Shown here piece after piece: positions 2,393 to 52,063 of a stretch of 64,000 bases of DNA; within the stretch, counting starts at the first letter, position 1; every line of letters starts with the position of its first letter. Position numbers and translations under genes: made by a program. The stretch lies in contig NZ_CP026538.1 in assembly GCF_004135975.1 (NCBI RefSeq), positions 2,914,001-2,978,000 of the forward strand. Reading direction: 5' to 3'. The DNA comes from Solidesulfovibrio carbinolicus. Its GTDB lineage: Bacteria; Desulfobacterota; Desulfovibrionia; Desulfovibrionales; Desulfovibrionaceae. Below the pieces are notes generated by a model. The model was not told the origin of the DNA. It saw only the letters and a program-made list of their open reading frames with translations, and ran no database searches.

Positions 2393-4360
2393 ATGGAAAT
2401 TCCCGTTCTGCCCGACGTCACCGTCGTTTTCGGCTTGGCCGTGGTGGTCATCCTGGTCTGCCATCGCCTGAAGGTGCCGGCCATCGTCGGCATGTTGCTG
2501 ACCGGAATGCTCTGCGGCCCCCATGGCCTGGGGCTGGTCCGCTCGGCCCACGACGTTGAAATCCTCTCGGAAATCGGCGTCATCATGCTGCTTTTCACCA
2601 TCGGTCTGGAACTTTCCCTGGCCGACCTGTCGCGCCTCAAACGCCCGGTCTTCATCGGCGGGTCGGCCCAGATGGCCCTCACCTGGGCCGTGTTTTTCGC
2701 CGTCCCCTATTATCTGCTGGATTTCTCCGGCGGCTCATCGGTGCTCATCGGCATGTTGGCCGCCCTGTCCAGCACGGCCATCGTGCTCAAAACCCTGCAA
2801 GAGTGTTCCCAGATGGAGGCTCCCCACGGCCGGGTGAGCCTGGGCATCCTCATCTTCCAGGATTTGCTGGCCGTGCCCATGATGCTTGCCGTGCCGTTGC
2901 TGGCCGGGCGCACCTTTGGCTTTACCAATTCCATCGTCTACACCGTGGGCAAGGGCGCGCTGATCCTCGTGCTGCTGGTCTTTTTCGCCAAAAAAATCAT
3001 GCCCGGGCTGCTCCTTTCCATTGTCCGCACTCGCAGCCGCGAACTGTTCCTCATGACCGCCCTGGCCATCTGCATGGCCGTCAGCCTGCTTACCGCCTCC
3101 ATCGGCCTGTCCCTGTCGCTGGGGGCCTTCCTGGCCGGGTTGCTCCTGTCCGGCTCGGACTACCGCGAAAATCTCCACGAAGCCGTGCTGCCCTTTAAGG
3201 ACGTCTTCACGTCGCTGTTTTTCATTTCCATCGGCATGTTGCTCAACGTCGGGTCGGCCTCGGCCCATCTCGGCGAAGTGATCGTGGCGGCTCTCCTGCT
3301 GCTGGTCACCAAGGCCGCCCTGGCCGGCACGGCGGCCCGCATCCTGGGCTACCCGACCCGCACCGCCGTGCTGGTCGGCATGGCCCTGTGCCAGGTCGGT
3401 GAATTCTCCTTCATCCTGGCCAAGACCGGTTTCGACAAGGACGTCATCTCCGAGCATTTCTACCAGAAATTCCTGGCCGCCAGCATCCTGACCATGGTGT
3501 TGGCCCCGTTTTGCATCACGCTCGCCCCGCGCATCGCCGCCCTGGTCTGCCGCTGGCTGCGGGTGTGCGACGCGCCAGACGAATTGCCCGCCGCCCACTA
3601 CAGCAACCACCTCATCATCCTGGGCTTCGGGGCCGGCGGCCGCCAACTGGCCCGGGCAGCCAAAAACGCCGAAATCCCCTACGTCATCCTGGAAATGAAC
3701 CCGGACACGGTGCGAAACGAAGCGAAAAAGGGCGAACCCATCCTTTTTGGCGACGCCTCCAAGCCAGGCGTACTGTCCCACATCTGCGTCCAGGAGGCCA
3801 AAGCCCTGGCCGTGGTCATCTCCGACGCGGCCGCCTCGCGCCGGGCCGTGGAAATCGCCCGCCAGGAAAACCCGGCCCTCTACATCGTGGCCCGCACGCG
3901 GTTCAACACCGAAATCACCGCCCTGCTCGACCTCGGAGCCAACGACGTCATCGCCGAGGAATTCGAAGCTTCGCTTGGCGTCTTCACCCGGGTCATGGAC
4001 AAGTTCATGATCCCCCATGACGACATCGAGAGGATGGTGGCCGACATCCGGCGCGAGGGCTACAAATCCATGCTGCCGGGCAGCTTTGACGAACTGGCCG
4101 TCCATGTGCCGGACAAGTCCCTGGCCGGGCTGCACGTGGCGGTGTTCACGGTGGATACGGCCTCGCCCCTGGCCGGCCGGTCGCTCATGGACGTGCACCT
4201 GCGCCGCGAACACGACCTGACCGTGGCCGCCGCAAGGCGCGGCGACGAATTCGTGCCCAACCCCGACGGACCGTTCGTGCTGTCGGCCGGCGACCGGCTC
4301 TACGTCATGGGCACGGCCGAGGCGTTGAAAAAGGGCGCGGGGCTTTTTCGGGGAGCTTGA
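2393..4360 (+). CDS. CPA2 cation:proton antiporter with TrkA-N and TrkA-C domains
   Basis: A 655-residue inner-membrane antiporter. The first 390 residues hold the Na+/H+-exchanger-like membrane domain (MLLFTIGLELSL, ILIFQDLLAVPMMLAVPLL, CQVGEFSFILAKTGF). A Rossmann TrkA-N domain (HLIILGFGAGGRQLARAAKN, about 405-520) and a C-terminal TrkA-C domain ending near GDRLYVMGTAEAL follow. This full architecture matches KefB/KefC-like and other ligand-gated K+/H+ exchangers. The ATG at 2393 is preferred over the upstream TTG at 2333, because the family starts just before the first membrane helix. It is probably co-transcribed with the MarR gene upstream. A dispersed repeat begins directly after its stop codon. 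K+ is the likely cation, by family inference only. Confidence 0.85.
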   Translation: MEIPVLPDVTVVFGLAVVVILVCHRLKVPAIVGMLLTGMLCGPHGLGLVRSAHDVEILSEIGVIMLLFTIGLELSLADLSRLKRPVFIGGSAQMALTWAVFFAVPYYLLDFSGGSSVLIGMLAALSSTAIVLKTLQECSQMEAPHGRVSLGILIFQDLLAVPMMLAVPLLAGRTFGFTNSIVYTVGKGALILVLLVFFAKKIMPGLLLSIVRTRSRELFLMTALAICMAVSLLTASIGLSLSLGAFLAGLLLSGSDYRENLHEAVLPFKDVFTSLFFISIGMLLNVGSASAHLGEVIVAALLLLVTKAALAGTAARILGYPTRTAVLVGMALCQVGEFSFILAKTGFDKDVISEHFYQKFLAASILTMVLAPFCITLAPRIAALVCRWLRVCDAPDELPAAHYSNHLIILGFGAGGRQLARAAKNAEIPYVILEMNPDTVRNEAKKGEPILFGDASKPGVLSHICVQEAKALAVVISDAAASRRAVEIARQENPALYIVARTRFNTEITALLDLGANDVIAEEFEASLGVFTRVMDKFMIPHDDIERMVADIRREGYKSMLPGSFDELAVHVPDKSLAGLHVAVFTVDTASPLAGRSLMDVHLRREHDLTVAAARRGDEFVPNPDGPFVLSAGDRLYVMGTAEALKKGAGLFRGA

Positions 4361-4428
4361 GAAGAAAGAAGAAAGAAGAGGCCTCCAGCGGCCAAAGGGG
4401 CTGAGCCCCTTTGGAAACCCCACCTGGG
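4361..4428 (+). repeat. Dispersed two-hairpin repeat, copy A
   Basis: Begins at the stop codon of the antiporter with a purine tract (gaagaaagaagaaagaagag), then GCCTCCAGCGGC. Hairpin 1 follows with arms CCAAAGGGGC / GCCCCTTTGG (4392-4414) around a TGA loop, then a short CCCC-ACCT-GGGG hairpin. Copies B, C and D share the order of parts, but their hairpin arms differ in a compensating way. It may act as a 3' processing or termination element of the antiporter transcript. Confidence 0.7.
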
Positions 4429-4437
4429 GGCCGGCGG

Positions 4438-5355
4438 TCAGCTCCGTAGGATGAATGCTAGACGGGCCGCCGCCAGATCGAACAGCGCGTGGCCCACGCT
4501 TTTAAAGACCACCGGCCCGGCCGGGCGCGGCGGCGCGCCGTCCAGCACGTCTTCCAGGGGCGTCACGCGCCCCCAATCCACGCCGGCCCGCAGATAATCC
4601 CCGGCCTCGGCCTTGGCCGCGGCCAAATCATCGACAAATAGCGACGCCCGCTCCACCAGCGAGGCCGGCAGCTCGGCGGCTTGGGGCGTAAACGACCCCA
4701 CCGCCGCGACAAACGCCTCGTCCCGGACGTTGTCGGCAAGGACCGGCTCGGCGCTCGTCGTGGCCGTGACGATGAGTCCGGCCCGGGCCGTCAGCCGGTC
4801 GCGCTCGCCCGGGTCGGCCGTGACGGCTACCGTCACACCCAGGGCCGCCAGCTCACTGGCCGCCGCCGCAAGCCGGGCCGGGTCGCGGCCGCACAGCACG
4901 ATTTCCCGCACCCCAAGGCCCTGCCAGAAAGCCGCCGCATGGCCCCGCGCCTGCACCCCGCTGCCGACGACGACCAGCGGCCCGGCCGGTTCCTTGGCCA
5001 GCCGCCGCGCGGCAAGCAGCGTCACCGCCGCCGTGCGCCGGGCCGTGACCGTGGGGCCGTCCAGGCTTCCCAACCGCTCGCCCGTGGCCGCGTCCAGCAC
5101 CGTCACCTCGCCCTGGATCACCGGCCGCTCCCGGTTGCCGGGATGCACGGTGATGGTCTTGACCACGGCCATGGCCCCGTCCGCCGCCGGCATGCACAAA
5201 AGCACCCCGCCAGGCACAGGCACGGCCAGACGCTCAGGCGCGAAGGCCTCGCCGGCCTTCCTGGCCCGCAACACGTCGGCCACGGCGTCCGAGAGGGCAA
5301 GATAATCGAACAGGCTGGCGACAGGGGGTGTGACGGTGGTTGCGGCGGTGGACAT
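4438..5355 (-). CDS. Ornithine cyclodeaminase/mu-crystallin family protein
   Basis: A 305-residue NAD(P)-binding enzyme of the ornithine cyclodeaminase / mu-crystallin family, which also includes delta1-pyrroline-2-carboxylate, ketimine and alanine reductases. Visible family features are the substrate-domain segment SLDGPTVTARRTAAVTLLAA (about 115-135), the Rossmann loop VVVGSGVQARGHAAAFWQ (about 146-163), GRDPARL, and the C-terminal FKSVGHALFDLAAA. The ATG at 5355 is preferred to the upstream in-frame start because a GGAGGC lies just before it and the extra N-terminal residues do not resemble the family. That ribosome-binding site is contributed by repeat copy B. It is monocistronic between convergent and divergent neighbours. 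Substrate cannot be assigned. Confidence 0.8.
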   Translation of the reverse strand: MSTAATTVTPPVASLFDYLALSDAVADVLRARKAGEAFAPERLAVPVPGGVLLCMPAADGAMAVVKTITVHPGNRERPVIQGEVTVLDAATGERLGSLDGPTVTARRTAAVTLLAARRLAKEPAGPLVVVGSGVQARGHAAAFWQGLGVREIVLCGRDPARLAAAASELAALGVTVAVTADPGERDRLTARAGLIVTATTSAEPVLADNVRDEAFVAAVGSFTPQAAELPASLVERASLFVDDLAAAKAEAGDYLRAGVDWGRVTPLEDVLDGAPPRPAGPVVFKSVGHALFDLAAARLAFILRS

Positions 5356-5356
5356 G

Positions 5357-5426
5357 GGGGAAGCCTCCGGCGGCCGGGGGGATGATCCCCCCGGACCCCT
5401 GCAACGGGGAAAGGGTTTAAGGGGGC
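5357..5426 (+). repeat. Dispersed two-hairpin repeat, copy B
   Basis: Contains GAAGCCTCCGGCGGCC, then hairpin 1 with arms CCGGGGGGA / TCCCCCCGG (5374-5394) and loop TGA, then CCCC-TGCAAC-GGGG and an AAAGGGTTTAAGGGGG tail. Unlike the other copies it does not follow a stop codon. It sits in the 5' leader of the ornithine cyclodeaminase-like gene in antisense orientation, and its GCCTCC supplies that gene's Shine-Dalgarno on the opposite strand. Confidence 0.7.
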
Positions 5427-5713
5427 CAGCCACGCGCGGTAGCATTTATGGTCGGCGCAAGCGCTTTGACTTGCCGGCGACGGAATCGGCATTCGCCAAT
5501 TTCCGGCGGCCAAGGGGTCCACGCTTTGTCACCCTACCGACGCTTGAAACGGATGGCAAACCGCCTGTCAAAGCGCCGCATTCAACAAAAAGGCCGGAGC
5601 GCCATCGACGCCCCGGCCTTGCATAAGCCAATCCCATTTGCCGCGCGTTGTCGTCCGCGCCGCCAGCCGGCATCAAGCCGGCCAGATTCCCCGAGAAAAC
5701 TCAGGCTCGCCGC
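5427..5713. other. Intergenic stretch without a gene
   Basis: Together with repeat copy B this makes a gap of about 358 bases between the divergent 5' end of the cyclodeaminase-like gene and the 3' end of the RND permease gene. Apart from the terminator at 5584-5620, I see no convincing reading frame with a ribosome-binding site and no recognisable RNA gene. The promoter of the cyclodeaminase-like gene presumably lies here, but I could not pick one out with confidence. Confidence 0.5.
5584..5620 (-). terminator. Rho-independent terminator of the RND operon
   Basis: Inverted repeat AAGGCCGG ... CCGGCCTT (5590-5620). On the minus strand it is followed by a run of T (CCTTTTTGTTG). It lies about 90 bp past the stop codon of the RND permease. 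Confidence 0.75.
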
Positions 5714-8700
5714 CTAGGCCTCGTCCTTCTCGGCCCTGTGTCCCACCAGCCAGGTCTGCAGCTCGTCCATGTAGGTGTAGAAACACGGCGTGAGATACAG
5801 CGTCACCATCTGGGAGATGACCAGGCCGCCGGCGACCACGAGGCCAAGCGGCTGGCGGGCGTCGCCGCCAGCCCCCATGCCCAGAGCGATGGGGAAGATG
5901 CCGGCGATGGCCGCCACCGTCGTCATCATGATGGGACGAAAGCGGACGACGCAACCCTCGAACACGGCGTCAAAGGGCGACTTACCCTCTTTCTCGGCCT
6001 CAATGGCGAAGTCGATGACCATGATCGAGTTCTTTTTGACGATGCCGATGAGCATGATGATGCCGATGAAGCCGTAGAGGTCGAGTTGTCGGCCAAAGAC
6101 CAACAGCGTGAGCAAGCCGCCAAGGGCCGCCGAGGGCAGGCCGGACAGAATGGTGATGGGGTGGATGAAACTCTCATAGAGGATGCCGAGAATGAGGTAG
6201 ATGATCATGATGGCCAAGAACAGCAGAAACGGCACGCTGGCCAGGGATTCCTTGAAAGCCGTGGCCTGGCCTTCGAAGATGTAGCTGATGTTGGTCGGCA
6301 GCTCCTGCTTGGACAGGGCTTCGATGGCCGTGACGGCCTCGCCGATGGAATAGTTGCCGGCGGTGTTAAAGGAGATGGTGACGGAAGTGAGCTGGCCGGT
6401 ATGGTTGACGACCAGCGGCCCGGTGTCTTCGGTCATCTTCACCAGGCCGTTTAAGGGCACCAGCACCGGCGTGCCGTCGGAATTGGTCTGGTTGGTGCGC
6501 ACGTAGAGCTTGTTCAAAAGGTCCGGCCGGCGCTGGTACTCGGGCTGCACTTCCACGATGACCTTGTAGGTGTCGGTGGAGCCGTAGAGGTTGGTGAGCT
6601 GACGCGCGGCGTAGGCGGTCATGAGCGCCGTTTCGATGGACGAAGCCGTGACCCCAAGGGCTTGCGCCTTGTCGCGGTCGATGTCGATGCGCACCTGGGG
6701 ACCGTCGATCTGCATGTCGGTGTTGACGTCGGTGATCTCTTTGAGCTTGCGCATGGACATGGCCATCTTGCGGGCCACGGGATAGAGCTCGCCGGGATCG
6801 GGCGAGAGCAACGTGTACTGGTAGAGCGCCTTGGTCTGCTTGCCGCCGATCTGGATGGAGGGCGGATTGTACATGAAGACGAAGAGATCGGGCACCTCGG
6901 CCATCTTTGGGCGCAGGTCGTCGATGATCTGCTGGGCGCTGCGCTTGCGATGCTCCATGGGGGCCAAAAGCGGGAACATGGCGGCGTTGTTCATGGAGGT
7001 GTTGGGACCGCCCACGCCCACGACGCCGATGAACTTGAACACGTCAGGGTCGGCCATGAACACGCGCCCGACCTTGAGCACCCGGTCCTTCATGGTCTCG
7101 AAGGAAGCCGACTGCTCGGCCATGCCGAAGGCGTAGAAGATGCCGGAGTCCGTGGCCGGAATAAAGCCCGTGGGCACCACGGTGAACAGCCAGAAGGTCA
7201 GCCCCAGGATGGCCATGGACAGGATCATGACGAAAAAGCGGAACCGCAGGGCCAGATGCAGCGACTTCTCGTAACCGTGCTCGATCCATTTAAAGATCTT
7301 GCCGGACTCGGAGATCTTACCCGACAGGAACCGGCTGCACATCATGGGCGTGAGCGACAACGTGACAAAGCCCGACACGAGGATGCACAGCGTGATGGTG
7401 ATGGCCATTTCGTTGAGCACGCGCCCGAGGATGCCGGCCATGAACATGATGGGAATAAAGACCACGGCCAGGGACAGGGTCATGGAGATGATGGTGAAGC
7501 CGATCTGGCGCGCCCCGTCCAGGGAGGCCTGCATGATCTTTTTGCCCATCTCGGTGTGGCGCACGATGTTTTCGATCATGACGATGGCGTCGTCCACGAC
7601 GAACCCGACGGCCAGGATGATGGCCATGGCCGAGAGGTTGTCGATGGAAAACCCGAAAAAGACCATGAGCGAGAGCGTGCCGATAAGGGCCGTGGGCAGG
7701 GCCAGGCTGGCGATGATGGTGGCCGGCAGGTTGTTGAGGAACAGGTAGACCACGATGACGACCAGGGAGATGGACAAAAGCAGGGTGAACTGGACGTCGT
7801 CGATGGCTTCCTTGATGGACTTGGAGCGGTCGTAGAGGAATTCGAGCTTGACCGAGGGCGGCAGCGTTGCCTCGATGCTCGGGATCATGGCCCGGATGGC
7901 GTCCACCAGCTGGATGGTGTTGGTGCCGGCGGCGCGTTTGACGGCGATGACGATGCCTTGCTGCTGGTCGAAAAAGGCGGCGTTTTTGTCGTTTATCGTG
8001 GAATCGATGGTCTGGCCCACGTCCTGCAGCCGCACCGGGCTGCCGTTTCGGTAGGCGATGATCTGGCGGTTGTAGGCTGTGGCGCTGGTCAACTGGCCCT
8101 GGGCCTTGATGGTGAACAGGCGATCAATGCCGTAGAGGGAGCCGGTGGGCTGCAGCACGGTCTCGTTATTAAACGCGTTGGCCACTTCGTCGATGCCAAT
8201 CGACAGGGCGGCCAGCTTGTCGGGGTTGACCTGGACCCGTGGCGAATAGGTCTGGTCGCCGTAAACGGCCACCTGGGCCACGCCGTTGATCATGGAGATG
8301 CGCTGGGCGATGTAGACCTTGGCGTAGTTGGTGACGCGGAACAGCGGCATGGTGTCGCTGGAGACGCGGATATAGATGATGGGCATGTCGGCCGGGTTGA
8401 CCTTCTGGAAGGTCGGCGGGCTCGGCATGTTGGTGGGCAGGCTGCCCTGGGCGGCGTTGATGTAGGTGAGCACGTCGGTGCCCGCGCCGTCGATGTTGCG
8501 CGACAGGTCGAACTGCAGCGTGATGGTGGTGGTGCCCAGCGAGTTGGCCGAGCTCATGGACTGCAGGCCCGAGATCGAGGTGAACTGGCGCTCCAGCGGC
8601 GTGGCCACGGCCGAGGCCATGGTTTCGGGGTCGGCGCCGGGCAGCGAGGCCGTCACCTGGATGGTGGGGAAGTCGATGCTCGGCATTTCGCTGATGGGCA

Positions 8701-8788
8701 GCGAGAAATACGAGACAATGCCGAAGAAGACCAGCGCGGCCATCAGCAGCGTTGTCGCCACCGGCCGCTTGATGAAAAGATCGGTCAT
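5714..8788 (-). CDS. RND efflux permease, MdtB/MdtC-like
   Basis: A 1024-residue inner-membrane proton/drug antiporter of the HAE1 RND family. It opens with MTDLFIKRPVATTLLMAALV and carries the paired periplasmic loops and twelve membrane helices of the family. The proton-relay aspartates are in GFVVDDAIVMIENIVRH (about 395-411) and the partner lysine in LIGIVKKNSIMVIDFAIEAE. Length and sequence are closest to the MdtC/MdtB branch rather than AcrB. E. coli MdtBC needs two different permeases, but only one is present here, so it probably works as a homotrimer. It lies 11 bp downstream of its adaptor gene. No TolC-type outer-membrane gene is adjacent, so the channel must be encoded elsewhere. 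Substrates are unknown. Confidence 0.9.
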   Translation of the reverse strand: MTDLFIKRPVATTLLMAALVFFGIVSYFSLPISEMPSIDFPTIQVTASLPGADPETMASAVATPLERQFTSISGLQSMSSANSLGTTTITLQFDLSRNIDGAGTDVLTYINAAQGSLPTNMPSPPTFQKVNPADMPIIYIRVSSDTMPLFRVTNYAKVYIAQRISMINGVAQVAVYGDQTYSPRVQVNPDKLAALSIGIDEVANAFNNETVLQPTGSLYGIDRLFTIKAQGQLTSATAYNRQIIAYRNGSPVRLQDVGQTIDSTINDKNAAFFDQQQGIVIAVKRAAGTNTIQLVDAIRAMIPSIEATLPPSVKLEFLYDRSKSIKEAIDDVQFTLLLSISLVVIVVYLFLNNLPATIIASLALPTALIGTLSLMVFFGFSIDNLSAMAIILAVGFVVDDAIVMIENIVRHTEMGKKIMQASLDGARQIGFTIISMTLSLAVVFIPIMFMAGILGRVLNEMAITITLCILVSGFVTLSLTPMMCSRFLSGKISESGKIFKWIEHGYEKSLHLALRFRFFVMILSMAILGLTFWLFTVVPTGFIPATDSGIFYAFGMAEQSASFETMKDRVLKVGRVFMADPDVFKFIGVVGVGGPNTSMNNAAMFPLLAPMEHRKRSAQQIIDDLRPKMAEVPDLFVFMYNPPSIQIGGKQTKALYQYTLLSPDPGELYPVARKMAMSMRKLKEITDVNTDMQIDGPQVRIDIDRDKAQALGVTASSIETALMTAYAARQLTNLYGSTDTYKVIVEVQPEYQRRPDLLNKLYVRTNQTNSDGTPVLVPLNGLVKMTEDTGPLVVNHTGQLTSVTISFNTAGNYSIGEAVTAIEALSKQELPTNISYIFEGQATAFKESLASVPFLLFLAIMIIYLILGILYESFIHPITILSGLPSAALGGLLTLLVFGRQLDLYGFIGIIMLIGIVKKNSIMVIDFAIEAEKEGKSPFDAVFEGCVVRFRPIMMTTVAAIAGIFPIALGMGAGGDARQPLGLVVAGGLVISQMVTLYLTPCFYTYMDELQTWLVGHRAEKDEA

Positions 8789-8799
8789 GACTGGTTCCC

Positions 8800-10008
8800 C
8801 TACTCGGCCCCGGCAGCGGCATCAGACTTCTTGACCTTGTCCGCCACTGCCTGGGGGGAAACCGGCCCTTCCTTGTAGGTCGTCCCATCCACGATCTTGA
8901 TGGGCACGCCCGGGAACAGCTTGATCTGGCCCGAGGTGATGACCTTTTCTCCGATGGCCAGCCCCTTTTCGATGACGGTCTGGTCCACGATCTTGCGACC
9001 GGCCGTCACCGGGCGGATTTCCACGGTGTTGTCGGGTTTGGCAATAAAAAGCGAGGCCCCGGATTGGGTGGCGACCACGGCGCTGGACGGCACGAGCAGC
9101 GTGTCGGCGGTCTGGGCCAGGACCACCGAGGCGTCCACGAACTGGCCGGGCCACAGGGCGCGGTCGGTGTTGGGGAACACGCCCTGCAGGGTGATGGTGC
9201 CGGTGGAAGTGTCCACGGTGTTGTTGATGACGTTGAGCACGCCCTTGGCGGCCACTTCCTGGCGGCCGGGATAACGGACGTCCACGGTGAGCTGCCCCTT
9301 GGCGGCGTAGGCGCGGATGTCGGGCAGATATTTTTCGGCCACGGCGAACTGGACGTTGATGGGTTCGATCTGGTTGAGGGTGATGATGACGTCCTTGTTG
9401 GCCTCGATGAGGTTGCCGGTCTTGTACTGCTGCAGGCCGACCACGCCGGTGCAGGGCGCGTGGATGTAGCAGTAATCGAGATTGACCTTGGCGTTGACCA
9501 CGGACGCCTCGTCCACCTTGACCTGTTCGTCGGCCTGTTGCCAGGCGGTGCGCTTTTGCTCGTAGTCTTCCTGGCTGACCACGGCCTGGGCCACCAGGTC
9601 GCGGAAACGCAGCCAGTCGCGTTTGGCCTGCAGCGCCGTGGCCCGGTCCCGGGCCAGGGTGCTCTTGGCCTCGTCAAGTTTGGCCTTGTAGGAGTCGGGA
9701 TCGATGACGAGCAGCAACTGGCCTTCCTTGACCACGTCGCCTTCGGCAAAAAGGGTCTTTTGCAGCACGCCCGTGACTTGGGAGCGCACGCTCACCGTGC
9801 GCACGGCATAGACATGGCCGATGCCGTCCACGGCCAGGGGGGCGGTGGTGGCCTTGGCCTCCATGACCGTGACCTCGACCGGGGTCGGTTTTTCGGCCTG
9901 GGGCTTTTTCTTTTCGCATCCGGCCAGCAGCGCCGAGAGGACAAACGCCAGCAAAACGGCGGCACAGGCGCTGGACCGGGCGGCCGAGCGGGAAATCGTG
10001 ACAGGCAT
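8800..10008 (-). CDS. RND efflux periplasmic adaptor (membrane fusion lipoprotein)
   Basis: A 402-residue adaptor that couples the downstream RND permease to an outer-membrane channel. It has an N-terminal signal peptide with lipobox (SALLAGCEKKK), so the mature protein should be anchored by a lipidated cysteine. A barrel-sandwich half motif follows (VRSQVTGVLQKTLFAEGDVV), then an alpha-helical hairpin (about 105-165), the second lipoyl half (IHAPCTGVVGLQQYKTGNLI), and beta-barrel and membrane-proximal domains. The ATG at 10008 is chosen because a GAGGAGA precedes it and it begins the signal peptide. The longer upstream frame adds a non-signal-like extension. It forms an operon with the permease. 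Confidence 0.9.
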   Translation of the reverse strand: MPVTISRSAARSSACAAVLLAFVLSALLAGCEKKKPQAEKPTPVEVTVMEAKATTAPLAVDGIGHVYAVRTVSVRSQVTGVLQKTLFAEGDVVKEGQLLLVIDPDSYKAKLDEAKSTLARDRATALQAKRDWLRFRDLVAQAVVSQEDYEQKRTAWQQADEQVKVDEASVVNAKVNLDYCYIHAPCTGVVGLQQYKTGNLIEANKDVIITLNQIEPINVQFAVAEKYLPDIRAYAAKGQLTVDVRYPGRQEVAAKGVLNVINNTVDTSTGTITLQGVFPNTDRALWPGQFVDASVVLAQTADTLLVPSSAVVATQSGASLFIAKPDNTVEIRPVTAGRKIVDQTVIEKGLAIGEKVITSGQIKLFPGVPIKIVDGTTYKEGPVSPQAVADKVKKSDAAAGAE

Positions 10009-10176
10009 GGATGCGGTCTCCTCTCGTTGGCGTCGCGGCGCGACGCACCAGGCCCAAGGGGCGGATGCTACGCGACACAGCGGGGCAAATGCCATCCCTC
10101 TCCCGCACATGCCTGCGAAAGTCAAGGGATTAACCAGAGTTGTAACGTGCCGACGCCGGATCGGCCAATACTTCGC

Positions 10177-11292
10177 TTATTGGATGGCCTGCTTGCCCAG
10201 ATACGGCCCATAGAGTTGGGCTCGGTATTCGGTGTCGACCAGCCGGCGCAGCAAGGCCACGTTGACGGACTTGCGCAACAGCGAACCGCGCGGAAAGGCA
10301 AAACCGTAGAGCTGCGGATCGAAAAAGCCCGGCAAAATCCGCACGTCGCCGGTAAAATCCCGGTGCTGGTAGTAATGTAAAATGGGCTGGTCGTGGACAA
10401 AGGCGTCGAGATCGCCGTCCACCAGGGCGGTGAGGCCCGCGTCCACCGTCTGATACCGGCGCACGCCGATATGGCCGGCCACCAGCTCTTCCTCGGCGGC
10501 GCTGTCCTGCAACACGCCTACCCGCACCTTGGGCAGATCGTCCGGGCCATGCACCCGGCCGGTCAAGGTGTCCACGGTCAGCGACGAGGTGATGCCGGCG
10601 GTGAAGGTGGCCAAAAGCGCCACCGAAGCAAACATCCAGACCATGGCCAGGGCGCGTCCCATGAAGGTTTTGGGCGTGGCGTCGCCGTAGCCCACCGAGG
10701 TCATGGTCACGGCCGACCACCACATGCCGTCGCCTATGCCCTTGCCGCCGGGCCGGAAATGCTCGGGATTGCGCCGCCGCTCCAGCAGCCAGACCCCGAT
10801 GCCGACCAGCAGCAGCAGTGCCAGCAGGGAGCCGACGTAAAAGAGCACCTGGGAAGAAAATATGGCGTCCACGACGCGCTCGACGGCGCTTTCCGCCACG
10901 GCCGGCACGGCGATGCCCAGGCCCGAATAGTAAAAGGGCTGGGAGAAATCCATCTGCGCTTCGCGCTCGGGGGTCAGGGACAAGGCGGAAACGCCCACGT
11001 CCACCTCGCCCCCGCGCACGGCGGCGAGCAACGCCTCCAGGCCGTATTCCCGGGTGGTGAAGCGCAGGCCCAAATCCTGGGCCACGTCCTCCCACAGGTC
11101 GTAGGCCACGCCGATGTAGTTGCCGTTGGGGTCTTTTTCCACAAACGGCGGGGCAATGACCACGCCCACGGTCAGGGTGCGGCCGGCAAAGGACGGATCC
11201 ACCGGTTCGAGCTTGGACTCGCAGGCCCCCTGCCCGGCCACGGCCAGCACCAACGCCGCGCATCCCAGGGCGGCCAGAAGAAGTCGGCGCAT
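10177..11292 (-). CDS. Prokaryotic ionotropic glutamate receptor-like potassium channel (GluR0 type)
   Basis: A 371-residue ligand-gated channel. It has a signal peptide (1-24) and a periplasmic solute-binding fold (about 38-130 and 250-365) interrupted by a two-helix pore module. That module comprises membrane helix about 149-170, a pore loop with the potassium filter TMTSVGYGD (196-204), and membrane helix about 211-236. This is the arrangement of GluR0 from Synechocystis, in which an amino acid opens a K+ pore. The first lobe (VGVVIAPPFVEKDPNGNYIG, DVGVSALSLTPEREAQMDFS) is typical of amino-acid-binding proteins. Its start codon overlaps the stop codon of the upstream MscS gene by one base (TAATG), implying translational coupling. 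The ligand is not predictable here. Confidence 0.88.
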   Translation of the reverse strand: MRRLLLAALGCAALVLAVAGQGACESKLEPVDPSFAGRTLTVGVVIAPPFVEKDPNGNYIGVAYDLWEDVAQDLGLRFTTREYGLEALLAAVRGGEVDVGVSALSLTPEREAQMDFSQPFYYSGLGIAVPAVAESAVERVVDAIFSSQVLFYVGSLLALLLLVGIGVWLLERRRNPEHFRPGGKGIGDGMWWSAVTMTSVGYGDATPKTFMGRALAMVWMFASVALLATFTAGITSSLTVDTLTGRVHGPDDLPKVRVGVLQDSAAEEELVAGHIGVRRYQTVDAGLTALVDGDLDAFVHDQPILHYYQHRDFTGDVRILPGFFDPQLYGFAFPRGSLLRKSVNVALLRRLVDTEYRAQLYGPYLGKQAIQ

Positions 11293-46989: not shown

Positions 46990-48018
46990 ATGGATCTCGG
47001 AACCATTTGGTTTATACTGTGGGGCGTGCTTTGGGCCGTCTATTTCATCCTGGACGGATTCGATCTCGGCATCGGCAGCATCATGCCGTTTTTCGCCAAG
47101 TCCAACGAAGAAAAACGCATCATGTATAACGCCATGGGTCCTTTCTGGGACGGCAACGAAGTGTGGCTCATCACCGCCGGCGGCGTGACCTTCGCCGCTT
47201 TCCCCAAGACCTACGCCGTCATGTTCTCGGCGCTCTACACGCCGCTGATGCTCCTGCTGTTCGCGCTGATCCTTCGCGGCGTGTCCTTTGAATTCCGCTC
47301 CAAGGTGGACAGCCCGGGCTGGCGCAAACTCTGGGACACCTGCAACTTCCTGGGCAGCTTCCTGCCGGCCTTGCTCCTTGGCGTGGCCTTTGCCAACATC
47401 TTCAAGGGCATCCCCATCGACCAGGACGGCATCCTGCACGGCAACCTCCTCACACTTCTTAACCCCTACGGTCTGGCCGGCGGCCTCCTTTTTGTGGCCC
47501 TTTTCGCCCACCACGGGGCGCTGTGGCTGGCGTTTAAATCCGAAGGCGACATCCATGACCGGGCCGTGGCCCTGGCCGGCAAGCTCTGGCCGGTGGTGGC
47601 CGGGCTGGTGGTGCTGTTCCTGGTCATGAGCCTTTTCATGACCCAGCTTTTTGCCAACTACCTGGTCAATCCGCTGCTGTTTATCATCCTGCTGGGGGCC
47701 GTGGCCGGGCTGGTCCTGACCATGACCTACCGCAAGGCCGGCCGCATCCTGGCTTCCTGGGGCGCTTCGGCCGTGCTCATCGGCTCGGCCGCCCTTTTTG
47801 GCGTGGTCGGCATCTTCCCGGCCCTGCTGCCCTCAAGCCTCAATCCGGCCTACTCCCTGACCATCCAGAACTCCTCGTCCTCGCCCATGACGCTGGCCAT
47901 CATGCTCGGCGTGGCCCTGGTCTTCGTGCCCATCGTCATCGCCTACCAGATCTGGACCATGCGCACCTTCAGCCACCCCGTGACCAAGGCCGACCTGGAC
48001 TACGAAGAAGCTTACTAA
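46990..48018 (+). CDS. cydB: Cytochrome bd oxidase subunit II
   Basis: The second membrane subunit of bd oxidase, 342 residues with eight or nine hydrophobic segments. Family markers are LWGVLWAVYFILDGFDLGIG, YNAMGPFWDGNEVWLITAGG, FAAFPKTYAVMFSALYTPLM and RGVSFEFRSK. It is co-transcribed with cydA and ends at a strong terminator. No cydX- or cydCD-like gene is present in the window. Confidence 0.95.
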   Translation: MDLGTIWFILWGVLWAVYFILDGFDLGIGSIMPFFAKSNEEKRIMYNAMGPFWDGNEVWLITAGGVTFAAFPKTYAVMFSALYTPLMLLLFALILRGVSFEFRSKVDSPGWRKLWDTCNFLGSFLPALLLGVAFANIFKGIPIDQDGILHGNLLTLLNPYGLAGGLLFVALFAHHGALWLAFKSEGDIHDRAVALAGKLWPVVAGLVVLFLVMSLFMTQLFANYLVNPLLFIILLGAVAGLVLTMTYRKAGRILASWGASAVLIGSAALFGVVGIFPALLPSSLNPAYSLTIQNSSSSPMTLAIMLGVALVFVPIVIAYQIWTMRTFSHPVTKADLDYEEAY

Positions 48019-48037
48019 GATACTCATTTTCAATATC

Positions 48038-48074
48038 AAATGCCGGCGAAGCGCGCTTCGCCGGCATTTTTTTT
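48038..48074 (+). terminator. Rho-independent terminator of cydAB
   Basis: A fully self-complementary stem, AAATGCCGGCGAAGCG / CGCTTCGCCGGCATTT, running into an eight-base T tract 20 bp after the cydB stop. Confidence 0.92.
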
Positions 48075-48120
48075 CGCCCTGGCGAAATCGGTGAAACAGC
48101 GGAAACACAGCATTTATTCA

Positions 48121-48147
48121 TTGACAACGAGAATCAACATCAGTACC
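48121..48147 (+). promoter_or_regulatory. Fur-box-like site and -35 element upstream of the fez operon
   Basis: GACAACGAGAATCAACATC (48123-48141) matches the classical 19-bp Fur box GATAATGAGAATCATTATC at 15 of 19 positions. It overlaps a TTGACA (48121-48126) that could be the -35 element. The site lies about 110 bp upstream of the first fez gene. Confidence 0.5.
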
Positions 48148-48247
48148 ACTACTTTTCGGCTTGCGATTGTTACCGAATTGTCACATTGCGGGATAGGAAC
48201 GGAGATGCCGTCCACAACGCAACCCACTTAAGGAAGGAGACGCACCC

Positions 48248-48508
48248 ATGAACGATTATCTGAAAAACGGACTGTTCCTGGCCGCTGGAGTCGCCATCGG
48301 CGCCCTTGGCGCGGTGGCCCTTGGCAAAGGCAAATTCTCGATCCGTCCGGCCATGGCCGACCTGCTGTCCCACGGCATGGACCTCAAGGAAAAGACCGCC
48401 ACGGTTCTGGAGCGGGCCAAGGAAAACCTCGACGACCTCATGGCCGAAGCCAAACACGCCAAGGAATCCCGGGAGGGCAAATCCGTGGCCGAAGGCGAAA
48501 CGGCCTAA
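48248..48508 (+). CDS. fezA: Small membrane-anchored protein, probable ferrosome protein FezA
   Basis: An 86-residue protein with one N-terminal membrane helix rich in Gly and Ala (LFLAAGVAIGALGAVALGKG, about 9-28). It is followed by a charged amphipathic helical tail (about 45-80, KEKTATVLERAKENLDDLMA). AAGGAGA precedes the ATG. It lies 30 bp upstream of a P1B-type ATPase with an SCA metal-site motif and is followed by an HMA-like membrane protein, the order of the three-gene fez operon described for ferrosomes in Desulfovibrio magneticus. The FezA label rests on this position and topology. The protein has no catalytic motif and could equally be seen as a generic ATPase accessory. Confidence 0.6.
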   Translation: MNDYLKNGLFLAAGVAIGALGAVALGKGKFSIRPAMADLLSHGMDLKEKTATVLERAKENLDDLMAEAKHAKESREGKSVAEGETA

Positions 48509-48538
48509 AGACCCCCTTGCCGGGTGGAGTTTCAACGC

Positions 48539-50755
48539 ATGACGCACTGCGCCATTGTCCACGATATACCGGGTCGGATGCGGCTGCGGTTCGCCTGCGC
48601 CGAAGCCTTTTCGGCGCAGGCTCCGGCCCTGGCCGCCGCCGCCGTATCCTTGTCCGGCGTGGCCGAGGTGATCCCCTCGCCTCGGACCCTCGGCCTGCTG
48701 GTTCTTTACAGCGGAGCCCCGGTGCGGCTGGCCCTTTTGGCCATGACCAAAAACGGCGACTCGGCCAAATCGGCCATGCTCACCCCCGCGCCCCGACGCC
48801 GGGGCAAGGCGGTCCGGGTCGTACGGCTCGGCAAGGTCGCCCTGGCCAAGGCCGGCGACAAACTCGCCAAGGCCGTCAACCTCCCGGCCGAGGCCGGGGA
48901 CAATCCCCCCTCGCCCTTGCAGGCCATGGCCCGCGAGGCCGGGATGTTCCTGCTGCGCGCCGCGTTGCCGCCGGCGTTTCGGCCGCTGTTTCTTATCAAG
49001 CGCGTCTGGCCGTTTATTAAGCGCGGCCTGGGGGCGCTTGTGCGCGGCAAGCTCAACGTCGAGGTCCTCGACGCCCTGGCGATTGGCGTGTCCATTGCCC
49101 GCAAGGACTACCGGGCCGCCACCGGCATCGCCCTGCTGCTGGGCCTTGGCGAGGTGCTGGAAAGCTACACCCGCAAGCGCTCCCGCGAGAGCCTGGCCGA
49201 AACCCTGGCCGCCTCCTTCGACGCCGTCTGGGTGCGCCGCGAGGACGGCCCGGTGCGCATCCCCGCCTCGGAAGTCGTGCCCGGCGACCTGGCCATCGTC
49301 ACCATGGGCAACGCCATCCCGGTGGACGGCGTGGTGGCCGAGGGCGAGGCCATGGTGAACCAGGCCTCCATGACCGGCGAACCCCTGCCCGCCCACAAGC
49401 GCGTGGGCCATACGGTCTTTGCCGGCACCGTGGTCGAGGAAGGCGAGATCGTTGTTCGGGTGGAAAAATCCGGCGGCGAGACCCGCATCCAAAAAATGGT
49501 GGAAGTCATCGAGGAGTCGGAGAACTACAAGGCCAAGGCCCAGGATCTGGCCGAACGCTTCGCCGACGCCGTGGTGCCCTGGACCCTGCTCGGCGCGGCC
49601 GTGGTCTTCGCCGTCACCCGTAACCCGCGCCTGGCCTCGGCCGTGCTGCTGGTGGACTTCTCCTGCGCGATAAAGCTCTCGGCCCCCCTGGCCGTGCTGG
49701 CCGCCATGCGCGAGGCCGCTTCCGGCGGCGTGCTGGTCAAGGGCGGCAAGTTCCTGGAGGGCGTGTCCTCGGCCGACGCCTTTGTCTTCGACAAGACCGG
49801 CACGCTGACCCAGGCCCGCCCCCGGGTGGCCGCCGTGGAACCCTTAAACGGCTACACCCGCCACGACGTCTTAAAGCTCGCCGCCTGCCTGGAGGAACAC
49901 TTCCCCCACCCGGTGGCCCGGGCCGTGGTGCGCCAGGCCGAGAAGGAAGGCATCGTCCACCAGGAGTTCCACGCTGAGGTGGATTACATCCTGGCCCACG
50001 GCCTGTCCTCCATGGTCGGCACGGACCGGGTGCGCCTGGGCAGCCGCCACTTCATCGGCGAGGACGAGGGCATCGACATCGCCGACGCCGACGCGGCCAT
50101 CGACGCCCGGGGCCTGGCCGGCCTGTCCACCCTCTATCTGGCCATCGGCGACGAAGTGGCCGGCGTGCTGGCCATCGAGGACCCGCTTGTCCCCGAAGCC
50201 CCGCGCGTGCTGCGCGAACTGACCGACCGGGGGGTTACGCGTCTGGTCATGCTCACCGGCGACGCCGCCGCCCCGGCCGCCATCGCGGCCAAGGAACTGG
50301 GCATCACCGACTACCACGCCCAGGTGCTGCCCGAAGACAAGACACGCATCGTGCGGGAACTGCGCGAGGCCGGCCACGTGGTGGCCATGGTCGGCGACGG
50401 CATCAACGATTCGCCGGCCCTGTCTGCCGCCAATGTTGGCATCGCCCCGCGCCACGGCGCGGATATTGCCCAGGCCGCCGCCGACATCCTGCTGGCCGAA
50501 GGCAGCCTGCAAAGCGTGGTGGCCCTGCGCGACATCGCCACCGGCCTCATGGGCCGGCTGCATGCCAACTTCCGGGCCATCTGCCTCATCAATTCCGTGA
50601 TCCTGGGCCTGGGGCTTTTCGGCCGCGTCACCCCGGGCGTCTCGGCCCTGGCCCACAATCTGGCCACCGTGGGCATTGCCCTGGCCAGCCTGCGGCCCTA
50701 TCTCCCCAAACACCTGCCAAGCGGAGGCGTCAGCCATGATAGCCAGCTGCATTGA
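48539..50755 (+). CDS. fezB: P1B-type ATPase of the FezB (P1B-6) kind, probable ferrosome iron pump
   Basis: A 738-residue metal-translocating P-type ATPase. The N-terminal region begins CAIVHDIPGRMRLRF and resembles an HMA fold without the CxxC. Actuator TGE (279-281), membrane helix 4 motif DFSCAIKLSAP with Ser-Cys-Ala (375-377) in place of Cys-Pro-Cys, phosphorylated Asp418 in DKTGT, the HP motif in EEHFPHPVARAVV, and VGDGINDSPALSAANVG follow. The lack of CPC argues against copper, zinc or cadmium exporters. SCA-type pumps with small partner proteins fit FezB, which loads iron into membrane-bound ferrosomes. The ATG at 48539 follows GGTGGAG; GTG at 48524 is an alternative. CtpC-like Mn export is the main alternative function. 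Confidence 0.75.
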   Translation: MTHCAIVHDIPGRMRLRFACAEAFSAQAPALAAAAVSLSGVAEVIPSPRTLGLLVLYSGAPVRLALLAMTKNGDSAKSAMLTPAPRRRGKAVRVVRLGKVALAKAGDKLAKAVNLPAEAGDNPPSPLQAMAREAGMFLLRAALPPAFRPLFLIKRVWPFIKRGLGALVRGKLNVEVLDALAIGVSIARKDYRAATGIALLLGLGEVLESYTRKRSRESLAETLAASFDAVWVRREDGPVRIPASEVVPGDLAIVTMGNAIPVDGVVAEGEAMVNQASMTGEPLPAHKRVGHTVFAGTVVEEGEIVVRVEKSGGETRIQKMVEVIEESENYKAKAQDLAERFADAVVPWTLLGAAVVFAVTRNPRLASAVLLVDFSCAIKLSAPLAVLAAMREAASGGVLVKGGKFLEGVSSADAFVFDKTGTLTQARPRVAAVEPLNGYTRHDVLKLAACLEEHFPHPVARAVVRQAEKEGIVHQEFHAEVDYILAHGLSSMVGTDRVRLGSRHFIGEDEGIDIADADAAIDARGLAGLSTLYLAIGDEVAGVLAIEDPLVPEAPRVLRELTDRGVTRLVMLTGDAAAPAAIAAKELGITDYHAQVLPEDKTRIVRELREAGHVVAMVGDGINDSPALSAANVGIAPRHGADIAQAAADILLAEGSLQSVVALRDIATGLMGRLHANFRAICLINSVILGLGLFGRVTPGVSALAHNLATVGIALASLRPYLPKHLPSGGVSHDSQLH

Positions 50756-51176
50756 AGGCCGCATCCGGTTCCGGCATCCGGCCCTGTCCGACCCCGAACT
50801 CCTGGAAATCGTCACCAGCCAACTCGCCGCCATGCCCGGTATCACCGAGATAGAGGCCAATCCCCGCACCGGCAGTGTGCTTGTCAGCCATGACGCGTCC
50901 GTGGCCACCAGCGACCTCGTGGCCATGGCCGAGGCCCTGGCCGCCACCCATGCCGAAGCGTTGGCCGAGGCCGCGCCGGCCAAGCCCGCCAAAAAGAACA
51001 TGACCCCGGCCCAGCTCAAGCGCCGCACCCAGAAGATCGGCCTGGCCACCTGCATGGCCGGAGCCGTGGCCACGGGTCTGGCCGACACCAAGGCCGCCCA
51101 CCTGACCTTCGGTTTCGCCCTGGCCGGCTTCGCCGCCTGGCACCTCTACATGCACCGGCGGCGGTTTCTGGCCTGA
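50736..51176 (+). CDS. fezC: HMA-like domain membrane protein, probable ferrosome protein FezC
   Basis: A 146-residue protein. The N-terminal domain (1-75) has an HMA-like pattern (CIEGRIRFRHPALSDPEL, MPGITEIEANPRTGSVLV) without the metal-binding CxxC. An Ala/Pro/Lys linker leads to two closely spaced hydrophobic segments near the C-terminus (about 100-140) and a basic tail MHRRRFLA. The motif GRIRFRHP echoes PGRMRLRF at the start of the ATPase, suggesting related domains. The ATG at 50736 follows GCGGAGG and overlaps the end of fezB by 20 bp, so the two are translationally coupled. FezC is the name of the third ferrosome protein in D. magneticus; assignment here is by context. Confidence 0.65.
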   Translation: MIASCIEGRIRFRHPALSDPELLEIVTSQLAAMPGITEIEANPRTGSVLVSHDASVATSDLVAMAEALAATHAEALAEAAPAKPAKKNMTPAQLKRRTQKIGLATCMAGAVATGLADTKAAHLTFGFALAGFAAWHLYMHRRRFLA

Positions 51177-51194
51177 TCCCCGGACCGCTTTCGT

Positions 51195-51887
51195 ATGACC
51201 ATGTTTAAAAGTCCGCTGCTCGAATCCTGCGGCATGCTGGATGTCGTCGCGCCCGACAAGGTGTGCGGCGACATCCTGCTCGCCCTGGTCCATCAACTGG
51301 CTGAATCCCTGGGCCGGGCCATTGACGCCAAGGATTCCCACACCATGGCCCACTCCGAGGAGGTGGCCGAGGTGTCGAAATTCCTGGCCGCCGCCATGGG
51401 CCTGTCCCGGGAGAGCGTCGCCTGCGTCCACGTGGCCGGCCATCTCCACGACATCGGCAAGATCGGCGTGCCCGACGCCGTTTTGGGCAAGCCCGGCCGC
51501 CTGGACCCCGACGAATGGCGGCAGATGCAGGCCCATCCGACCATCGGCGCGGACATCCTCGACCCTCTGGACTGCCTGGCCCGCACCGGCATCGTGGAAA
51601 TGGTGCGCGCCCACCATGAACGTTTCGACGGCTCGGGCTATCCCGCCGGCCTCAAAGGCCGGGAGATTCCCCTTGGCGCGCGCATCATAAGCGTCGCCGA
51701 CAGCCTGTCGGCCATGCTCCAGACCCGGCCCTACCGCCCGGCCATGGGCTTTGCCGAGGCCCATCGGGAGATTGTGCGCTGCGCTGGCAGCCAGTTCGAC
51801 CCCGATGTGGTGGACGCCTTCCTGGCTGTGGCCGGCGACGTACGCCAGCTTCTGGGCTCCTGCCGGGGCGGCGTCTTGGTGCCCTGA
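51195..51887 (+). CDS. HD-GYP domain protein, probable cyclic-di-GMP phosphodiesterase
   Basis: A 230-residue cytoplasmic protein made of little more than an HD-GYP domain. The metal-binding HD is in VAGHLHDIGKIGVPDAVLGK, followed by the second histidine pair RAHHERFDGSGYPAGLKG with an intact GYP, and then ISVADSLSAMLQTRPYRP. All residues expected for c-di-GMP hydrolysis are present. No sensor domain is attached, so activity would depend on partners or expression. It begins 18 bp after fezC and is probably in the same operon, which would tie iron-organelle genes to second-messenger turnover. Met at 51201 is a possible alternative start. Confidence 0.85.
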   Translation: MTMFKSPLLESCGMLDVVAPDKVCGDILLALVHQLAESLGRAIDAKDSHTMAHSEEVAEVSKFLAAAMGLSRESVACVHVAGHLHDIGKIGVPDAVLGKPGRLDPDEWRQMQAHPTIGADILDPLDCLARTGIVEMVRAHHERFDGSGYPAGLKGREIPLGARIISVADSLSAMLQTRPYRPAMGFAEAHREIVRCAGSQFDPDVVDAFLAVAGDVRQLLGSCRGGVLVP

Positions 51888-51968
51888 AAACGCGGCCAAG
51901 GCAAAACGAGTCGGGAACGGCCGACTTGCGCCCGCTCCTGGGCGGCGGCTGAAATTTCAGAACACAAT

Positions 51969-51987
51969 GATAATGACTATCCAAATC
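51969..51987 (+). promoter_or_regulatory. Fur-box-like site upstream of the porin
   Basis: GATAATGACTATCCAAATC matches the classical Fur box at 14 of 19 positions, with the first eight bases exact. It lies 77 bp upstream of the porin start. A 12-bp palindrome, CTGAAATTTCAG, is just before it at 51949-51960. Confidence 0.5.
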
Positions 51988-52063
51988 ATTTAGCAGACAT
52001 TGCTTCCAGGCCACTGTCATCGGAAACCCTTCAACCACGCGGAAACGGGAAGGAGTGTCGCTC

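Follow-up and report, generated by a model that had tools for sequence, protein, structure and literature searches.

The 64,000-nucleotide stretch analyzed here, hereafter the window, belongs to Solidesulfovibrio carbinolicus and corresponds to G000:C1:2914001-2978000, G000 being the window's own genome of 4.69 Mb. We propose, with high confidence, that the genes at 48248-51176 of the window are a ferrosome operon, fezABC, and that their host is closely related to Desulfovibrio magneticus. The system itself is known, and the operon is nearly identical to the one in the apparent model organism. The fezABC genes of D. magneticus RS-1 reportedly build membrane-wrapped iron-storage granules, as described by Grant et al. 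in 2022, and fezAB of Clostridioides difficile is said to have been treated by Pi et al. in 2023.

One line of support is the locus of another genome of the same genus, G133, whose proteins are 100% (FezA), 98.5% (FezB), and 98% (FezC) identical to those of the window and in which the flanking cydAB and HD-domain genes are kept. On circumstantial grounds, we take G133 to be D. magneticus RS-1. When the seven P-type ATPases of G133 are read at transmembrane helix 4 (M4), three have Cys-Pro-Cys (CPC), three have neither this motif nor Ser-Cys-Ala (SCA), and the single SCA protein is the fezB product. If G133 is RS-1, then the window and RS-1 share gene order, the three protein types, the SCA motif, and the setting between cydB and the HD gene, with protein identities of 98-100%; the match to fezABC of D. 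magneticus suggested from the sequence alone would then be borne out. The two genomes differ in an actin-like gene of G133 (E value 5.7e-18), which is presumably MamK and which has no counterpart in the window genome, nor in G160, G143, and G058, while G121 has a different extra hit. The strain is a near neighbor of the apparent model ferrosome organism and, by this single marker search, may lack magnetosome genes. PMC12748827 states that RS-1 accumulates ferrosomes when iron returns after starvation.

The features of the locus are as follows.

48038-48069, plus strand: intrinsic terminator 3′ of cydB, between cydAB and the fez operon, with a 14-pair stem, a 4-base loop, and a T tract (consensus scan)
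48121-48137, plus strand: putative Fur-like operator TTGACAACGAGAATCAA (columns conserved in all 8 fezA-bearing genus members; pattern kin upstream of a FeoB gene)
48248-48508, plus strand: fezA, 86 residues, with a glycine-zipper membrane segment and a charged tail, KENLDDLMAEA; DUF6110-like (FezA profiles)
48539-50755, plus strand: fezB, a P1B-type ATPase of 738 residues with an HMA-like N-terminus, DFSCA in M4, and HN in M6 (Pfam and NCBIfam, alignments, tree, AlphaFold model)
50736-51176, plus strand: fezC, 146 residues, with an HMA_2 domain and two helices with conserved His, a predicted b-type cytochrome (Pfam, profile, alignment, AlphaFold model)

The three tightly packed genes of 86, 738, and 146 residues, described earlier in a sequence-only reading, are found as such, and the overlap noted there between the last two is 20 bp. 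The start of fezB is placed at the ATG at 48539, the open reading frame (ORF) list beginning at the in-frame GTG at 48524 (743 residues); that of fezC is placed at the ATG at 50736, the list beginning at a TTG at 50676 (166 residues). By Pfam, cydA and cydB precede the fez genes, and a gene with an HD_5 domain begins at 51195, after fezC. A PADLOC search returned nothing at 0.001.

The three Fez proteins

The M4 segment of FezB reads VDFSCAIKL, and the alignment places the motif at S375-C376-A377, confirming the replacement of Cys-Pro-Cys in helix 4 that had been read from the sequence. In an alignment of 23 sequences, the window protein and 22 from other organisms, D373, S375, C376, H706, N707, and T710 are invariant. 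The AlphaFold model (mean predicted local distance difference test score, pLDDT, 77.8; predicted template modeling score, pTM, 0.64) has an HMA-like N-terminus and helices 363-371 and 374-395, broken at the SCA motif; its helices 658-693 and 699-716 would be M5 and M6. The invariant D373, S375, C376, H706, and N707 are offered as candidate residues for iron-binding tests. NCBIfam assigns FezB to the heavy-metal P-type ATPases, and no ferrosome-specific family is among the NCBIfam matches listed (25 for FezB, none for FezC). The PDB structures closest in sequence are those of Cu, Cd, and Zn ATPases.

A rival explanation is plain metal efflux, in which FezB would export Fe(II), Zn(II), or Mn(II) present in excess, the small proteins would serve as chaperone and anchor, and no organelle would be formed. 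A P1B ATPase fold and HMA domains are indeed typical of efflux systems, and an organelle is not visible from sequence. The phylogeny points elsewhere. In a tree of 59 ATPases, representing a chosen part of the loci and built by a quick method with support given only by the Shimodaira–Hasegawa-like approximate likelihood ratio test (SH-aLRT), FezB of the window and its genus falls inside a clade of 38 rows (SH-aLRT 99), together with both C. difficile rows and loci of several phyla. Escherichia coli CopA and ZntA, and the three CPC ATPases of the window's own genome, fall outside this clade, whose sister consists of 11 ATPases from other clusters (SH-aLRT 99). Lacking a CPC motif and not being placed with either protein, FezB is a member of neither the CopA nor the ZntA group. 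The ATPase had been expected to group with FezB proteins; it does so with the C. difficile representative that we take for FezB, and CopA and ZntA lie apart.

The partner genes also argue against efflux. Leaving aside the genus and the second cluster described below, 93 of 96 SCA-type ATPases have a FezA match within 3 kb on either strand, a count that includes the 18 seed loci, which match by construction, and some near-copies (the misses are L034, L088, and L099). Further points are the near-identity to the one locus with an SCA ATPase in the apparent RS-1 genome and the presence of a Fur-like operator, whereas excess metal would be expected to induce an efflux pump. We consider efflux without an organelle improbable, and on the tree and the partner genes this reading and the CopA/ZntA reading were set aside.

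A second possibility is a CtpC-type Mn(II) pump, or a member of another P1B subgroup, that resembles FezB in the SCA motif only. The tree contains no CtpC reference, which leaves some room for this view; it also contains neither the SCA ATPases of L045, which was removed by the motif filter, and L171 nor a named Shewanella or Rhodopseudomonas FezB. The strong profile scores of the FezA and FezC partners and the common clade with the presumed C. difficile FezB speak against it, and we regard it as very improbable.

The small proteins had been likened to FezA and FezC, a likeness that profiles built from other genera uphold. Seeded with 18 sequences, none of them from the genus, a FezA profile picks out this ORF (2.3e-27) and no other among the 558 ORFs of the window at E values up to 10. 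When all Desulfovibrionaceae are left out (10 seeds), the same ORF is found at 2.6e-17, again with no other window ORF, the best of 1000 shuffles reaching 0.022. Above the Pfam cut-off, DUF6110 matches the small protein preceding the C. difficile CD160 ATPase at 2.2e-23, one encoded on a Deinococcus plasmid at 3.5e-15, and one of D. piger at 4.1e-6. The C. difficile locus thus resembles that of the window in having a DUF6110 protein before an SCA-motif ATPase of the same clade. In PMC12574912, fezA and fezB of C. difficile are reported to be Fur-repressed and both required for ferrosomes. The C. difficile system differs in that its ATPase is only 39% identical to the window FezB and that no FezC-like ORF is present among the hydrophobic same-strand ORFs listed up to 1.5 kb downstream.

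FezC residues 2-60 match Pfam HMA_2 above the cut-off (4e-10), the sequence has no CxxC, and two membrane helices are predicted. The description of an HMA-like membrane protein lacking CxxC consequently holds as far as it goes; a more fitting description of the protein is an HMA domain joined to a predicted cytochrome part with two histidines. Among eight aligned sequences, only H122, G126, and H136 are invariant; three of these sequences (L053, L056, and L058) are shorter than 80 residues and lack the HMA part, so invariance there is excluded. Built from 11 seeds, none of them from the genus, a FezC profile scores the third ORF at 7.3e-32; its further match to residues 9-126 of the FezB frame (2e-6) shows that the N-terminus of FezB resembles the HMA part of FezC. 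The AlphaFold model (pLDDT 81.7, pTM 0.48) has an N-terminal β-α fold and long helices at 91-115 and 119-145, the latter carrying both histidines. A Foldseek search with this model gave nothing below 0.001 (best 0.012; many top rows were HMA domains and some were unrelated).

For FezC of Desulfurispirillum indicum, PMC10979944 (published form PMC11334425) reports haem-b absorbance and a model as a DUF4405-like homodimer. By that description, it is likewise a DUF4405-related membrane protein of a ferrosome cluster with conserved haem histidines. The conserved H122, G126, and H136 fit this published haem cytochrome; haem binding by the window FezC is predicted, and the three residues are candidates for haem-binding tests.

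The upstream region and a proposed mechanism

Given the strong terminator between cydB and fezA, the three genes are probably transcribed from their own promoter. In the intervening sequence lies the Fur-like palindrome at 48121-48137, 12 of whose 17 columns (ttgaca.c.a...tca.) do not vary among the eight genus members that carry fezA, including G097, where the operon is broken; the surrounding sequence aligns poorly in the more distant members. The sequence-only reading placed a 15/19 Fur box upstream of the genes. A conserved Fur-like site does lie there, and its best match to the classical 19-base Fur consensus is 14/19 (48123-48141); the 15/19 match is that at 48019-48037, on the minus strand. 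We rejected the latter as the operator, as it lies before the cydB terminator and is kept in only four of the eight: it scores 14 or 15/19 in the window, G133, G160, and G143 and is absent from the best matches of the other four fezA-bearing members. Over the whole window, on both strands, three places reach 15/19 and four reach 14/19. Since such scores recur, the score alone is weak, and it is conservation that carries the operator claim.

A pattern drawn from the fez upstream sequences, TTGANAAYRATTWTCAA, occurs 22 times, at 20 places, in the genome at up to two mismatches, and the reversed pattern occurs 0 times. One place is the site at 48121-48137 itself, with two mismatches; another is 436 bases upstream of a FeoB domain, and a third is 69 bases from an ORF recognized by eye as flavodoxin-like. 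The fez site helped shape the pattern, and at many of the places no iron gene is evident, or the match falls within a long ORF that may not be real. Together, the conserved site and its kin upstream of FeoB support Fur control without proving it. A Fur-like palindrome at G000:C1:1705438-1705454, first read as a feo promoter, gives no support, its nearest gene being a SpoIIE-type phosphatase 84 bases on. Elsewhere in the window, a Fur-box-like stretch at 51963-51987, with overlapping 15/19 and 14/19 matches, lies about 70-90 bases before a putative porin gene at 52055.

A likely mode of action is as follows. Under low iron, Fur repression at 48121-48137 would be lifted, and FezA, FezB, and FezC would be made. 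FezA, as a glycine-zipper membrane protein, may mark or form a membrane vesicle together with FezB, and FezB would drive Fe(II) out of the cytosol and into this vesicle, at the expense of ATP, through a site that includes the Ser-Cys-Ala of M4 and the His-Asn of M6. FezC, with its HMA domain and two-helix haem-b part, and maybe as a dimer, would move electrons across the vesicle membrane, by which stored iron could be oxidized for storage or reduced for release. The genes, their homology, the conserved residues, the kept operator, and the synteny are observed directly; that the window organism forms vesicles, that iron is the substrate, that FezC binds haem and has a redox role, and that Fur binds the operator are inferred.

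Distribution in the genus

Of the 199 family genomes searched, the window's own included, 14 belong to the genus. The order cydAB-fezABC-HD is intact in seven of them (G000, G133, G160, G143, G121, G058, and G167). In six others (G080, G181, G152, G109, G025, and G174), the HD gene adjoins cydB, with no fez match in between. The remaining genome, G097, has a broken operon (L140 5200-6110): fezA has been kept, fezC carries a frameshift, and fezB is short of 2019 bp, the loss lying between two direct 11-base repeats (CGGCCCTGGCC). This may be real decay or an assembly fault, the assembly being in 490 contigs. A survey scoring five candidates per genome missed this broken operon, which was revealed by a cydB search and inspection of the surrounding stretch. 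With G097 scored as lacking the operon, presence of the intact locus on a cydAB tree requires four changes, three of them forced by well-supported branches. The ratio of nonsynonymous to synonymous substitution rates (dN/dS) between the window and G133 and G160 is 0 to 0.13 across the three genes, pointing to purifying selection between close kin. Natural relatives without the operon, or with a broken one, would allow the cost and benefit of ferrosomes to be compared in closely matched bacteria.

Several observations weigh against the fezABC identification. Some close kin lack the operon, and against the distant G058 and G167 dN/dS rises to 0.27 and 0.36 for fezB and to 0.53 and 0.44 for fezC, indicating faster evolution. 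In Pfam, the window FezA reaches DUF6110 at only 0.049 and FezC reaches DUF4405 at 0.035, both below the cut-off. A sigma-70 scan of 47900-51400 found no promoter-like site. A ferritin is also encoded in the genome, and ferrosomes would not be the sole possible iron store. Finally, two assignments are our own: that of G133 to RS-1, made on circumstance, and that of the C. difficile rows, which we labelled FezA/FezB ourselves.

A second cluster and plasmid relatives

Five of the six genomes with no fez match after cydB (G152, G181, G174, G025, and G080) encode an SCA ATPase that shares 81-94% identity with the G152 protein, the match in G025 being interrupted by a single in-frame TGA. Searched with the G152 protein, the seven fez genomes give FezB itself as the best match, at 39-41%. 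Neither a second-cluster SCA ATPase nor an intact fezABC was found in G109 and G097. At L046 (G152, 3424-11089), the ATPase has as neighbors a CPC ATPase, an HMA_2-like protein (below the cut-off), a Tyr/Gln/Pro-rich FezA-like protein (2.1e-7), and FeoA; the second cluster is also seen at L044 and L045 (G025 and G080). The pattern of mutual exclusion between the two clusters is suggestive; a kinship-aware test, with at most two informative pairs, gave a median p of 0.5, which is not significant. A tentative and rather doubtful idea is that the genus has two ferrosome-type clusters, related yet distinct, that stand in for one another, with either fezABC at a fixed site after cydB or the second cluster present. 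If true, the second cluster would form an iron organelle of a separate type, served by two pumps.

A ferrosome system with more genes is known. Rhodopseudomonas palustris has six fez genes, RPA2333-2338, according to PMC12016538, as compared with the three here, a comparison made by description; they fall with iron genes under low light, according to PMC6879726. Related fez-like clusters were seen on plasmids of Cereibacter, Azospirillum, and Arcobacter (L168, L169, and L170), near TonB receptors or an iron ATP-binding cassette transporter, and one fez-bearing plasmid, pORIO2, was typed as conjugative. The Azospirillum cluster (HMA_2, HMA, two unknown proteins, a YtxH-like protein, and the ATPase) may be kin of the six-gene cluster of R. 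palustris. In the same family as the window genome, two ATPases adjacent to SCA ATPases (L047 6329-8413 and L049 5988-8372) have Ala-Cys-Ala instead of SCA, which may alter the metal site.

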